47,722 bases of DNA, from positions 1 to 47,722 of the forward strand of contig DAIDKH010000032.1 of assembly GCA_027450145.1 (NCBI GenBank), written 5' to 3'. A program made the translations under genes and the position numbers. The DNA comes from Chthonomonadaceae bacterium. GTDB taxonomy: Bacteria; Armatimonadota; Chthonomonadetes; Chthonomonadales; Chthonomonadaceae. This document shows, one piece after another, positions 14,177 through 19,139 of the stretch (position 1 is the first letter of the stretch; every line of letters starts with the position of its first letter). A model generated the notes under the pieces. That model saw nothing but the letters and a program-made list of their open reading frames with translations. It ran no database searches and was not told the origin of the DNA.

Positions 14177-15136
14177 TCAAACGGAAACAGGCCGGGACTG
14201 CAATGCGCTCTCGATAATTCCATCCAGCATGGTACAGAATGAAATACCTGCCTTTTCCGCTGCTTGCGGCAGGAGGCTGGTTGGTGTCATGCCTGGTATG
14301 GTATTCGTCTCGAGAATTACACCTTCCTTCTCTTGTACGATAAAATCGGTCCGTGACATTCCGTGGCAACCCAACAGATCGTGGCATTCCACAGCTAGAA
14401 CACCCAGCCTGTGCAGAACGTCTTGCGGTAACCTGGCAGGAATTATATGCTCGCTGCCACCCGCGGCATACTTGCTTTCGTAATCGTAATATTCTGATTT
14501 CGGTACTATCTCAATGGGTGGCAGAGACTTTGGAAACTGAAACGCATTACCCAGCACACCTACTGTTACTTCCATTCCCCTAAAATACGGTTCAATAATA
14601 ATAAGATCATCGAATTTCCAGGCATCTCGCATGGCAGATTGCAGTTCATCCACGTTGTTGACCCTGGCGCATCCAAATGTTGAACCTTCACAATTTGGCT
14701 TTACGAAAACCGGGAACCCGCCTAACTCATCATTAAGTCGGGCAACCAATCCGGTCATATCAAAATCCTGACCACGGTTGATGGCGATTTCAGGCAGCAC
14801 CGGTAGCCCGGCTCCCCTATAAAGCCTCTTGCTTTGCCACTTATTCATAGCCAATGCGCTCGCCAGGATCCCGGATCCAGTGTACGGCACGTTCAGCCAC
14901 TCTAGAAGACCCTGCACCGCCCCGTCCTCGCCTCCACGGCCATGTAAAGCTATAAAAACTAGGTCGGGCAGGTTACCCCGCTGGTCTAACAGGTCTTCTA
15001 CCTCACCGGCATATGCATCATATCGACCAGGATCTAGGGCAGAAAGAATTTGCGCCCCCGTAGATAAGGACACCTCGCGCTCGTGCGATTTCCCCCCCAT
15101 TAGTACCATCACCCGCAACCGCTCATTTATTGTCAT
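14177..15136 (-). CDS. ddl: D-alanine--D-alanine ligase
   Basis: The 319-residue protein is an ATP-grasp ligase. It has the GGKSHEREVSL substrate loop (14-24), LHGRGGEDG, the ATP-binding KPNCEGSTFG, the YYDYESKY omega-loop region, and the C-terminal magnesium/ATP motif ETNTIPGMTPTSL. It makes the dipeptide ending of the peptidoglycan precursor. The Tyr in the YYDYESKY loop is what D-Ala (not D-lactate) ligases have. It starts two bases after murC ends, so translation is coupled. Confidence 0.96.
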   Translation of the reverse strand: MTINERLRVMVLMGGKSHEREVSLSTGAQILSALDPGRYDAYAGEVEDLLDQRGNLPDLVFIALHGRGGEDGAVQGLLEWLNVPYTGSGILASALAMNKWQSKRLYRGAGLPVLPEIAINRGQDFDMTGLVARLNDELGGFPVFVKPNCEGSTFGCARVNNVDELQSAMRDAWKFDDLIIIEPYFRGMEVTVGVLGNAFQFPKSLPPIEIVPKSEYYDYESKYAAGGSEHIIPARLPQDVLHRLGVLAVECHDLLGCHGMSRTDFIVQEKEGVILETNTIPGMTPTSLLPQAAEKAGISFCTMLDGIIESALQSRPVSV

Positions 15137-15138
15137 GT

Positions 15139-16545
15139 CTACCTCTGCACCCTTACCAAGCCCACTAGCTGATCGGCCACGCGGGAAACGTCACCAGCTC
15201 CCATAAATACAAGCACATCCGCAGGCCGTAGCACCCTCATAATAGTTCCCGGCAGCTCATTCATATCCCGCGCAAGGTACACCGGCGGTGGATCATTGCT
15301 GCGCACCACCAGATCCGCGATTGCAGCCGATGAAATATCGCCAGGGTCCTTCTCCCGTGCAGCATAAATAGGCGCCAAAATCAGTACGTCGGCATGGCCA
15401 AGGACATCAACAAATTCGTGCAGAAAGTCACGCGTGCGAGAATACAGGTGGGGCTGAAATACTAAAACAACTCGGCGACCTGAATAGGCGCTTGCCAGTG
15501 CGGTCAATGTTTCACGAATCTCTGTAGGGTGGTGGGCATAGTCGTCGACTACCGTTACTTCCCCGCCTCCCAGAGCAAGCGTACCCAATAATTGCTGTCG
15601 CCTGTCAACACCGTAAAACTGTTGAATACCGGCAACCATTTCATCAAGGTTTGCTCCCGGAAGCACGTCGGCCAGTGTTAACACCGCCAGCGCATTCGAG
15701 ACATTGTGCCTCCCAACTACATGGAGGCGTATGCGGTAGTTGCGCCATGAAAATGAGGACTCATCCTCTAATTTCAAGTGAGTGACGTCATCCATTCCGT
15801 ACCAATGAATGGAAGCACCTTCCGGCATCAAGGCCGCTAGCTCCCTTACGCCCAGATCATCGCGGCAGAGTATGAGTGATCCTCCCTTTGCCACAATCGC
15901 AGTAGCGAAAGTGCGAAAGCTCTCCATCATGCGTTCTGCGGTGCCAAAATGGTCCATATGATCCGCTTCGACATTGGTAATAATCGCGATGTTAGGTACT
16001 AGACAAAGAAATGAGTCATATGCTTCGCATGCTTCAGCAACAAATGGAGCGTTTAGCGAGCCTATAATTACGTTGCCGCCGAGTTGAGGGACCTCTCCCC
16101 CCACAAACACTGTAGGGTGCAGCCCTGCCAATGCCATACAAACCCCAGCCATAGACGTTGTAGTTGTCTTGCCATGCGTACCTGCTACGGCCACTGTACA
16201 TCCAGAATGAGCGGCCATTAACCTACCCAGGAACTCCGCTCTGGAAACAACGGGCACACCCATTTGGGTCGCCGCAATCAACTCTGGAGATGTCGACGCA
16301 ATAGCTGCCGAGGCTACCACGAGTTGTATATCTGGTGAAATGTTCTCCGCTCGGTGCCCCTCAAAGATCGTCGCGCCAGCAGCTTTCAACCTCGCGAGGG
16401 CCGGGTTGGCAGCGGTACTCGCATACAGGTCGGAACCTGAAACTCGACTGCCACGCTCTAGAGCAACCTGAGCAAGTGCACTAACGCCAATTCCGCCGAT
16501 TCCCGCAAAGAAGATATGCGAAGGAAAGGTAATGTGGGCTGTCAT
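15139..16545 (-). CDS. murC: UDP-N-acetylmuramate--L-alanine ligase
   Basis: The 468-residue protein is a full-length Mur ligase. It has an N-terminal UDP-MurNAc-binding Rossmann loop AGIGGIGVSALA (14-25), the ATP loop GTHGKTTTT (122-130), the central NVEADHMDHF motif, and the C-terminal VVDDYAHHPTEI and PHLYSRTRDF segments that position L-alanine. It adds the first amino acid of the peptidoglycan stem. The leader before the ATG is AT-rich and lacks a visible Shine-Dalgarno, unlike its neighbours. murB, often fused or adjacent here, is absent. Confidence 0.97.
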   Translation of the reverse strand: MTAHITFPSHIFFAGIGGIGVSALAQVALERGSRVSGSDLYASTAANPALARLKAAGATIFEGHRAENISPDIQLVVASAAIASTSPELIAATQMGVPVVSRAEFLGRLMAAHSGCTVAVAGTHGKTTTTSMAGVCMALAGLHPTVFVGGEVPQLGGNVIIGSLNAPFVAEACEAYDSFLCLVPNIAIITNVEADHMDHFGTAERMMESFRTFATAIVAKGGSLILCRDDLGVRELAALMPEGASIHWYGMDDVTHLKLEDESSFSWRNYRIRLHVVGRHNVSNALAVLTLADVLPGANLDEMVAGIQQFYGVDRRQQLLGTLALGGGEVTVVDDYAHHPTEIRETLTALASAYSGRRVVLVFQPHLYSRTRDFLHEFVDVLGHADVLILAPIYAAREKDPGDISSAAIADLVVRSNDPPPVYLARDMNELPGTIMRVLRPADVLVFMGAGDVSRVADQLVGLVRVQR

Positions 16546-16564: not shown

Positions 16565-17095
16565 TTAGAGGTTACTAAAATCGGTAACCGAGCGTTCACG
16601 AGGATCCACATGGATACCCGTTGTATGCAGATAAGCTATCGCACGCTGAACCTCACCCAGTCGGCCCGTAAGTGCTATTTCAACCCAGCCGCCGTCCTCG
16701 TCGAGATCGGCACCTGTAATATTGCACACGATATCGAAATCACGGCCTAACCGATACAATATGGGAGTTGTGATTGACTGCCGTTGAACAACATCAAGCC
16801 GAATGTGTATTGTGTACGCACTGGAAATGGAATCTTCGGGTCGCTGGCCGAGCCCGCTTGGCAGAGAGAGATCCACTTCGCCACTTGCAACCATACCGAG
16901 ACTCGCTAGGTAAGCTCTAGCGGCCGCACATTGTGAAGCAGACCCTTCCACTTCAATGGACATAAAGGCCGTTTCACTGGTGATACGCGCTTTAATAATA
17001 GTCGGTACCACGTGAAATAGCCTGGCCATCCGCCACAATATGGGTTGGCATACCTGCTCACCTACGGCCGTGATGTTTATGCACTGCGAAGCCAT
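16565..17095 (-). CDS. Double NIL-domain protein
   Basis: The protein is 176 residues from ATG 17095, seven bases after AAAGGAC. An in-frame extension upstream has no ribosome site. Two ferredoxin-fold NIL domains are visible. One covers about 6-70 (QPILWRMARLFHVVPTI then MSIEVEG). The other covers about 95-165 (TTPILYRLGRDFDIVCNITGADL then GWVEIALTG). NIL domains are best known as the ligand-sensing tail of the methionine importer MetN and also occur in NIL-ferredoxin proteins tied to homocysteine synthesis in methanogens. It sits between the sulfur-carrier gene and murC, which points to methionine or sulfur metabolism. Confidence 0.8.
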   Translation of the reverse strand: MASQCINITAVGEQVCQPILWRMARLFHVVPTIIKARITSETAFMSIEVEGSASQCAAARAYLASLGMVASGEVDLSLPSGLGQRPEDSISSAYTIHIRLDVVQRQSITTPILYRLGRDFDIVCNITGADLDEDGGWVEIALTGRLGEVQRAIAYLHTTGIHVDPRERSVTDFSNL

Positions 17096-17167
17096 AACTT
17101 GTCCTTTAAACGATGCAATCGAAATCGTTACCCCGGCACTCGAAGGCACCGGGGCACAACACCAGAA

Positions 17168-17443
17168 CTAACCCCCTGCAATTGCAGGAACAATGGAGAT
17201 CGAGTCGCCATCCGCAATAGGTGTCTGCAGTCCCTGTAAGAAGCGGATGTCTTCTTCATTAACGTAGATGTTTACGAACCTGCGCAACTCCCCATCCGGG
17301 CCAATGAGCCTGGCCTCCATGCCAGGGAAATTTGCCTCTAGCTCGGCTAACAATGTAGCCACCGAGCCGGGACTTGCCTGCACGGCCTCCTGATTATTTG
17401 TGAACTTACGCAGAGGCGTGGGAATTAGCACGCTTATTGCCAT
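17168..17443 (-). CDS. MoaD/ThiS-like sulfur-carrier protein
   Basis: The protein is 91 residues from ATG 17443, five bases after GGAGG. It is a ubiquitin-fold protein with the MoaD pattern: IPTPLRKFT at the start, VNIYVNEEDIRF in the middle, and DSISIVPAIAGG at the end. The terminal Gly-Gly is what an E1-like enzyme adenylates so that the carrier can hold sulfur as a thiocarboxylate. No moaE, thiG or E1 gene is nearby. The neighbours are instead a threonine-synthase-like PLP enzyme and a NIL protein, so a role in cysteine or homocysteine sulfur insertion is likely. Confidence 0.88.
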   Translation of the reverse strand: MAISVLIPTPLRKFTNNQEAVQASPGSVATLLAELEANFPGMEARLIGPDGELRRFVNIYVNEEDIRFLQGLQTPIADGDSISIVPAIAGG

Positions 17444-17481
17444 AGAAACCTCCAAAAATCTACTACTAGTATACTGGCAAA

Positions 17482-18732
17482 CTACACAACCTGTAACAGT
17501 TTGTCTGTCTGCAGTGCCTGATCGAGGGCGTCAAGATTCGGCTGAATGAGAACCGGCGCCCCCAGGTGCCCCTGCACGGCTTCCTGTGTCTTTAACCCGT
17601 TACCGGTTATGGCAATGACTACCAAATCATCCGCTCCAAAGCGCCCCTGCTCTGCAAGCTTCTTCGTAACCATGACTGTCACACCGCCAGCGGTCTCGGT
17701 GAAGATGCCTTCAGTACTGCCTAAAAGCTTGATGCCCTCAATCACCTCGTCATCAGTAACGTCTGCTGCCCAACCGGCGGATTTTCGAACAGTATCCATA
17801 GCCACATATCCATCGGCAGGATTCCCAATGGCTATGGATTTTGCAATCGTGTTGGGCTTTTGGGGCCTAAACACCTCTGCGTTAGTTTGAATAGCAGTAG
17901 TTATGGGCGAACACCCCGTGGCCTGGGCTGCATACATGCGCGTAGGCACTCCATTCTCCAACAGGCCAAGGCGGTTCATTTCATTCAAGCCTTTGTAAAT
18001 TTTGCTGATTAGCGAACCGCCAGCACACGGAACAACGATATGATCCGGAGCACGCCAACCGAGCTGTTCGGCAATTTCATAACCAAATGTTTTTGAACCA
18101 TCCCCGTAGTAGGGTCGCAAAGTGATGTTTACAAAGGCCCAGCCGTATTTGCCACCAGCTTCCGCGCAGAGCCGGTTGACTTCGTCGTAATTACCTTTAA
18201 CGGCCAGCACGTTGGCACCATAGACAAGAGTACCTAATACTTTTCCCTGCTCAAGATCTGAAGGAATGAAGATGTACGCCTTAAAGCCACCTTCCGCCGC
18301 GTGGGCAGCCACCGAATTGGCCAGGTTTCCAGTGGAGGCACATGCAACAGTGTCGAATCCGAATTCGCGCGCCTTCGTAAGTGCTGTTGCGACGACACGG
18401 TCTTTAAATGACAATGTAGGATGATTGACCGCGTCATTTTTGATGTACAGATTGTTGAGCCCTAGCTTCTTTCCAAGGCGTTCTGCTTTAACAAGCGGAG
18501 TGAAGCCCACGTTGTGCCCTACACACGGCGGCCCCTCAACTGGCAGGAGATCGTGATACCTCCACATGGAGGGCGGCCCTGCCTGGATCGACTTTCTACT
18601 GACGCGAGGAGCGATTTCCTCCCAGTTCATGATCACTTCCAGCGGGCCGAAGCAGAGCTCGCACACATGTATAGGCGAAAGCGGATATTCTTCACCGCAT
18701 TCGCGACAGCGCATACCAAGGGTCTTAGGCAT
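17482..18732 (-). CDS. thrC: Threonine synthase family PLP enzyme
   Basis: The protein is 416 residues from ATG 18732, eight bases after GGGAG; the longer open frame upstream is riboswitch. An N-terminal zinc-ribbon (C9-x2-C12 and C24-x2-C27) precedes a fold-type II PLP domain. The PLP lysine is K110 in LSFKDR, and the phosphate loop is CASTGNLANS. Threonine synthase converts O-phosphohomoserine to threonine. In this family the vinylglycine-type intermediate could also accept sulfur, and the two downstream genes encode a sulfur carrier and a NIL protein. Plain threonine synthase remains the default name. The leader's T-box appears not to carry a threonine codon. Confidence 0.88.
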   Translation of the reverse strand: MPKTLGMRCRECGEEYPLSPIHVCELCFGPLEVIMNWEEIAPRVSRKSIQAGPPSMWRYHDLLPVEGPPCVGHNVGFTPLVKAERLGKKLGLNNLYIKNDAVNHPTLSFKDRVVATALTKAREFGFDTVACASTGNLANSVAAHAAEGGFKAYIFIPSDLEQGKVLGTLVYGANVLAVKGNYDEVNRLCAEAGGKYGWAFVNITLRPYYGDGSKTFGYEIAEQLGWRAPDHIVVPCAGGSLISKIYKGLNEMNRLGLLENGVPTRMYAAQATGCSPITTAIQTNAEVFRPQKPNTIAKSIAIGNPADGYVAMDTVRKSAGWAADVTDDEVIEGIKLLGSTEGIFTETAGGVTVMVTKKLAEQGRFGADDLVVIAITGNGLKTQEAVQGHLGAPVLIQPNLDALDQALQTDKLLQVV

Positions 18733-18778: not shown

Positions 18779-19111
18779 CAAAAAGGCCACTCGTAACCAT
18801 GCGCTACCGCGGGGTGCACAGGACGAGAGGCCAAAGCCTTCGTGGTTCCACCTGTTTTCACTGTTCCGTCACCAGAACAGCCTCGTCGGGTGCAGCCTGT
18901 CAATTCACAGACAACACCCCGACCCTGTAACGGGAGTCCCCCGGCAGCGCCTACTGGGCATTAACCTGTTCAGCGCTGCGGCTCAGAGGCCATTTCGACT
19001 GGATTGCATGTACCGGCTTTCACCAACCCGGCTCGCTGTGTCAGCAACGACCAGACTACTCCACCTCTTCGTCGCCAAAAACCTTCACCGGATTAACCGG
19101 GATTTATTCTT
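18779..19111 (-). promoter_or_regulatory. T-box riboswitch leader of the thrC-moaD-NIL operon
   Basis: On the minus strand, stem I has AGAGG (19064-19068) pairing with CCTCT, the AGTA loop-E element (19057-19060), and a distal AGCGAGCC...GGTTGGTG...AAGCCGG tip. The specifier strand GAAATGGCCTCTGAGC lies at 18981-18996. The T-box itself is GGTGGAACCACG at 18841-18852. A downstream stem, GGCCTCTCGT (18823-18832) with ACGAGTGGCC (18785-18794), has one mismatch and runs into TTTTT, a terminator. The specifier is best read as AUG (18993-18991): it is followed by a purine and ends at the base stem. UGG or GGC are possible in shifted registers. The T-box variable base is A, which predicts a tRNA discriminator U, unusual for tRNA-Met. 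Confidence 0.88.
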
Positions 19112-19117
19112 TTTGAA

Positions 19118-19123
19118 ATTATA
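19118..19123 (-). promoter_or_regulatory. Extended -10 promoter of the T-box operon
   Basis: TATAAT is preceded by TGG, giving an extended -10 (TGnTATAAT). The -35 region at 17 bases is CGCAAG, not consensus. Transcription would start near 19111 and include the whole T-box leader. Confidence 0.6.
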
Positions 19124-19139
19124 CCATAGGAACGTAAAC

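Follow-up and report, generated by a model that had tools for sequence, protein, structure and literature searches.

The first-pass annotation of a 47,722-nucleotide stretch of Chthonomonadaceae DNA (contig DAIDKH010000032.1; hereafter, the window) placed a T-box riboswitch with an apparent methionine specifier, AUG, in front of an operon headed by a 'threonine synthase'. Why should a methionine switch precede a gene for threonine synthesis? Here, cmscan of the window gave a sole Rfam match, the T-box family RF00230, which was full length (model positions 1–219; 19081–18816) and scored 94.5 bits (E 1.5e-19), above the curated gathering score of 93 bits. Every part named in the first pass (AGTA loop, distal tip, GAA–specifier–GAGC strand, antiterminator, and terminator with U-tract) was located on the minus strand (Table 1), and its span of 18779–19111 runs from the promoter-proximal leader to the U-tract. 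The distal Stem I element GGUUGGUG, a Stem II S-turn with the F-box CCGUUA, and GAGC were present, and GAA-AUG-G spans 18996–18990, opposite the specifier-loop S-turn. In folding, antiterminator and terminator were mutually exclusive, with 18832–18824 as the common strand, and the terminator fold was better than those of shuffled sequences. A comparable hairpin and U-tract follow most of the related leaders. The sigma-70/terminator scan missed the terminator because its loop is long, and the sigma-70 consensus scan found no minus-strand promoter and did not list the TGGTATAAT element, which was read directly from the sequence. We read the leader as a T-box riboswitch acting by transcription attenuation, its tRNA binding and switching being predicted; it has the same parts, register, and transcription attenuation as the long Stem I class of RF00230 with Stem II and IIA/B.

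Table 1 Features of the T-box leader and the downstream operon in the window.
Feature	Position	Strand	Basis
Extended −10 promoter-like element TGGTATAAT	19118..19126	-	Read directly from sequence
T-box leader, full-length RF00230	18816..19081	-	cmscan
Stem I base stem, 5′ strand AGAGG, above kink-turn	19064..19068	-	RF00230 match; covaries with 18989–18985 in 20 leaders
AGUA, specifier-loop S-turn	19057..19060	-	RF00230 match
GAA, 3′ strand of specifier-loop S-turn	18994..18996	-	RF00230 match
Specifier AUG (Met)	18991..18993	-	Kept in all 20 leaders, with variable neighbours
Stem I base stem, 3′ strand CCUCU	18985..18989	-	RF00230 match and 20-leader comparison
T-box UGGA inside GGUGGAACC, variable nucleotide A at 18847	18847..18850	-	RF00230 match
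Antiterminator CAGG-UGGAACC-ACGA ... UCGU-CCUG	18817..18854	-	RF00230 match and folding
Intrinsic terminator GGCC(U)CUCG...CGAG(U)GGCC-U5	18780..18832	-	Folding, z −2.67
metM-like PLP enzyme (416 aa) with an N-terminal zinc-ribbon motif; annotation: threonine synthase	17482..18732	-	PF00291, TIGR00260
metO-like sulfur carrier of the ThiS/MoaD type, C-terminal GG	17168..17455	-	PF02597, 65.8 bits
Two-NIL-domain protein	16565..17149	-	PF09383, 73.9 bits

Orthologous operons were sought in 61 genomes by searches with the NIL protein and for ThrC-family members, and the specifier was compared in 20 leaders, all from Armatimonadota (the contigs of G002 and G008 end too early to show the whole leader). 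AUG was present in all 20 and was the sole triplet of the specifier loop that was always kept. The four base-stem pairs beside the loop varied among GC, AU, and GU and were paired in all 80 cells of the 20-leader comparison. Because AUG was invariant and lies one nucleotide from this covarying base stem, which is the default specifier position in TBDB, it was fixed as the specifier, as first proposed. The base 3′ of AUG was G in 16 leaders, A in three, and U in one. The base between GAA and AUG was absent in 15, A in three, and C in two, and the standard register GAA-N-AUG occurred in five leaders. No ACN triplet was found in the specifier loop of any of the 20 leaders, in agreement with the first pass, and a threonine specifier was rejected. 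It is conceivable that another triplet of the loop is read (UGG, Trp; GGC, Gly; AAU, Asn) and that the AUG register is illusory: in the window leader, the spacing between GAA and UGG is the standard one, and GGC would suit the U73 implied by UGGA, as the tRNAGly of this genome has U73. However, the orthologous leaders read AUGA, AUGU, or C-AUG, so that each of the three triplets was lost in some of them and AUG never. The variable 3′ neighbour excludes UGG and GGC, and the tRNATrp has G73. We therefore rejected these registers, including the UGG register that the first pass had left possible, as extremely improbable, provided that specificity did not shift among the orthologous leaders.

The genome of the window carries two further T-boxes, before ilvB-ilvN (GAA-U-CUC) and valS (GAA-U-GUC). 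In a calibration set of ca. 90 T-box loci of relatives, the ilvB T-boxes read CUC and the valS T-boxes GUC, mostly as GAA-N-XXX with a single nucleotide separating the triplet from the base stem. Nearly all loci carried UGGU. Compared with most T-boxes of the phylum, the window leader is one nucleotide shorter between GAA and the specifier. Since some Leu leaders also lack N (GAA-CUC; L053, L236, L245, and L247), this shortened specifier loop has precedents. The valS T-boxes of two relatives (L037 and L218) had UGGC in place of UGGU.

The T-box UGGA would require U73 on the tRNA, and the first-pass annotation had cautioned that this is atypical for tRNAMet. Inspection of the discriminators bore out the caution. 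In the genome of the window, the tRNAs with the anticodon CAU, which AUG matches, have A73 (elongator tRNAMet and tRNAIle2) or C73 (initiator), and U73 occurs on tRNAGly, tRNAThr, and tRNACys. The complete genome G003 has exactly three CAU tRNAs, with A73, A73, and C73. The CAU tRNAs of G055, a genome from another family that encodes their CCA end, showed the same discriminators. No CAU tRNA with U73 was detected among the 40 tRNAs of the window's incomplete assembly, the 46 of G003, or the 47 of G055. The variable nucleotide was A in 12 of the 14 leaders of the window's family (the partial leader of G008 counted), G in G003, and U in G016. A recurs in G055, and apart from this genome, the leaders of other families carry U. 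The pairing between variable nucleotide and discriminator thus fails in the window's genome and in G055, where A faces A73 or C73, and the window leader differs from the RF00230 family in that none of the CAU tRNAs seen offers a partner for its variable nucleotide. In TBDB, this pairing occurs in the majority of T-boxes but not in all; therefore, a discriminator match was not counted as a defining T-box feature. Taken together, the leader is a methionine T-box, a kind already known, with a shortened specifier loop and a discriminator mismatch.

Among the CAU tRNAs of G003, only the initiator (C73) can pair with the variable nucleotide of its leader, UGGG. Initiator tRNAs in bacteria usually have A73; in this phylum, all but one of the copies read (L172, L170-L197, and L499) have U72 and C73 (...GCTC-CCA). 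The T-box of the window's family may therefore read initiator tRNAfMet rather than the elongator, as the met leader of Staphylococcus does (PMC3771891). Besides that precedent, the C73 of the initiators, the G003 leader (L105), whose UGGG pairs fully with C73 and U72, and the abandonment by this family of a U able to pair with elongator A73 are consistent with such a reading. On the other hand, most leaders of the family carry an A that cannot make a Watson-Crick pair with C73, and one keeps U; we consider initiator reading possible but rather unlikely. Also rather unlikely is the evolutionary proposal that this T-box dropped the elongator discriminator pairing and was tuned to initiator tRNAfMet (C73), in which case the usual discriminator pairing could be dispensed with or an A-C contact would take its place. 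If this tuning were true, methionine synthesis would be tied to the supply of initiator tRNA. The conserved mismatch provides a natural test of the importance of the N-N73 pair in T-boxes.

The first gene of the operon starts with ATG at 18732, with GGGAG upstream, and its product exceeds the TIGR00260 cut-off. The designation 'threonine synthase' operon held as far as the enzyme family and the ThiS and NIL genes that follow are concerned, but most likely not for the identity of the enzyme. In the tree, a 100/100 branch split the MetM-like clade, which included the window protein, from canonical ThrC; the genome of the window has a canonical ThrC as a second gene (L264), with no T-box match. 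The identity of the window protein was 60% to the Microcystis homologue and 36% to its own ThrC, and its closest named MetM-like relative is on an Armatimonadetes contig (L368; 74% identity); the tree also placed L366 among the MetM-like proteins. The clade includes homologues from Cyanobacteria, Nitrospirota, Aquificota, and others and was connected to Streptomyces MetM via its Microcystis member, since an identity of 51.6% is reported between the Microcystis ThrC and the MetM of Streptomyces albulus (PMC12172450). S. albulus MetM is a homocysteine synthase using O-phosphohomoserine, and its gene adjoins the ThiS-like metO under a SAM riboswitch (Hasebe 2024, as cited in PMC12172450). MetM activity is known to have been demonstrated in Streptomyces only, and the cyanobacterial homologue worked in vitro as a threonine synthase and deaminase and reportedly did not fully act as MetM in vivo (PMC12172450). 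In the window, the next gene encodes the ThiS-like sulfur carrier expected of MetO. Of the 80 homologous loci in our collection scan, 73 had ThiS directly downstream and 42 had NIL. Additionally, a SAM riboswitch was found directly upstream of the metM-like gene in five of 18 scanned loci (NC10, Planctomycetes, Kiritimatiellae, Actinomycetes, and one other bacterium).

The gene product is thus most likely not ThrC but a homocysteine synthase of the MetM type, the activity being predicted from homology and gene context. The misfit between a methionine switch and a 'threonine synthase' would then vanish because the predicted product of the operon, homocysteine, is the precursor of methionine. 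A rival reading, in which the enzyme is a true threonine synthase under a threonine-sensing T-box whose specifier has degenerated or moved, would accord with the TIGR00260 score and with the U73 of the own tRNAThr, which matches UGGA. We consider it very improbable, given the lack of ACN in the specifier loop of every leader, the separate canonical ThrC without a T-box match, and the SAM riboswitches ahead of distant homologues. Methionine binding is a possible role of the NIL protein; the parallel is the NIL domain found in MetN, to which the match was weak.

MetX was not found in the genome of the window, nor in any of the 17 sampled genomes of its family, and the only strong PF01053 protein of this genome matched racemase and lyase models below their cut-offs rather than MetY, and was not recognisable as a homocysteine synthase. 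Across the 61 genomes, MetX was absent in 27 of the 31 with a MetM-like gene versus seven of the 30 without it (Fisher p 4.9e-7, a value that ignores kinship among genomes of shared ancestry). At the family level, the association had p 0.036 with the mixed family f3 excluded. Four genomes carry MetX and the MetM-like gene together. A methionine T-box might also control a gene that serves mainly as threonine synthase/deaminase, as both pathways share O-phosphohomoserine, and the in vitro activities of the cyanobacterial homologue point in this direction (PMC12172450). In G009, moreover, the MetM-like gene was the sole ThrC-family gene found, as if also serving threonine synthesis, and no T-box was detected before it. 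However, canonical ThrC is also present in most genomes with the MetM-like gene, and MetX loss, linkage to the ThiS sulfur carrier, and the SAM riboswitches elsewhere argue for homocysteine synthesis; a mainly threonine-related role is thus improbable.

The arrangement can be compared with three known systems. Met T-boxes of Staphylococcus (metICFE-mdh) and Lactobacillales have an AUG specifier and control methionine biosynthesis or transport (PMC3771891). The window leader resembles them in specifier and in methionine control, but it belongs to another phylum and precedes metM-metO-NIL instead of metICFE. As in S. albulus (Hasebe 2024, cited in PMC12172450), an RNA switch related to methionine precedes the gene of a threonine-synthase-family enzyme, and a ThiS-like protein is encoded next to it. 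The switch is a T-box here and a SAM riboswitch there, and the window operon adds a NIL protein. In the NIL/ferredoxin-DUF39-COG2122 pathway of Desulfovibrio and methanogens, which forms homocysteine from aspartate semialdehyde, a NIL protein is likewise linked to homocysteine formation (PMC5764234). In contrast, the window enzyme is a PLP-dependent relative of ThrC, and its NIL protein consists of two NIL domains, with no match to ferredoxin.

The T-box very probably reads tRNAMet via AUG and controls a metM-metO-NIL homocysteine operon, with both binding and enzyme activity predicted from sequence. Uncharged tRNA(CAU), on building up, would make two contacts: its anticodon would pair with the Stem I AUG, and its 3′ CCA end would pair with the UGG in the bulge of the T-box. 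The antiterminator would thereby be stabilised and the operon transcribed; with charged tRNA, the terminator would form. The metM product, a threonine-synthase-family enzyme, would convert O-phosphohomoserine to homocysteine using sulfur carried on the ThiS-like protein. As the operon is predicted to make homocysteine, switch and gene would both serve methionine. After the NIL gene, murC and ddl follow on the minus strand (14177–16545), with gaps of ca. 20 and 2 bases. Since the strand is the same and the gaps are short, the Met T-box may also affect these cell-wall genes by co-transcription.

MetM-like genes were also found in Aquificaceae (L410, L419, L426, and L436), including a genome labelled Aquifex aeolicus; ThiS adjoins the gene in L419 and L436 and was not found beside it in L410 and L426. 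Aquifex aeolicus has been named among the organisms without a known homocysteine route (PMC5764234), and with these genes the gap becomes testable. In Armatimonadota, the conserved RNA specifier would correct the annotation of the 'threonine synthase' genes beside ThiS, and often NIL. Homocysteine synthesis is the most likely function of these ThiS-adjacent enzymes and, by homology, of those in Nitrospirota, Cyanobacteria, Aquificota, Omnitrophota, and others.
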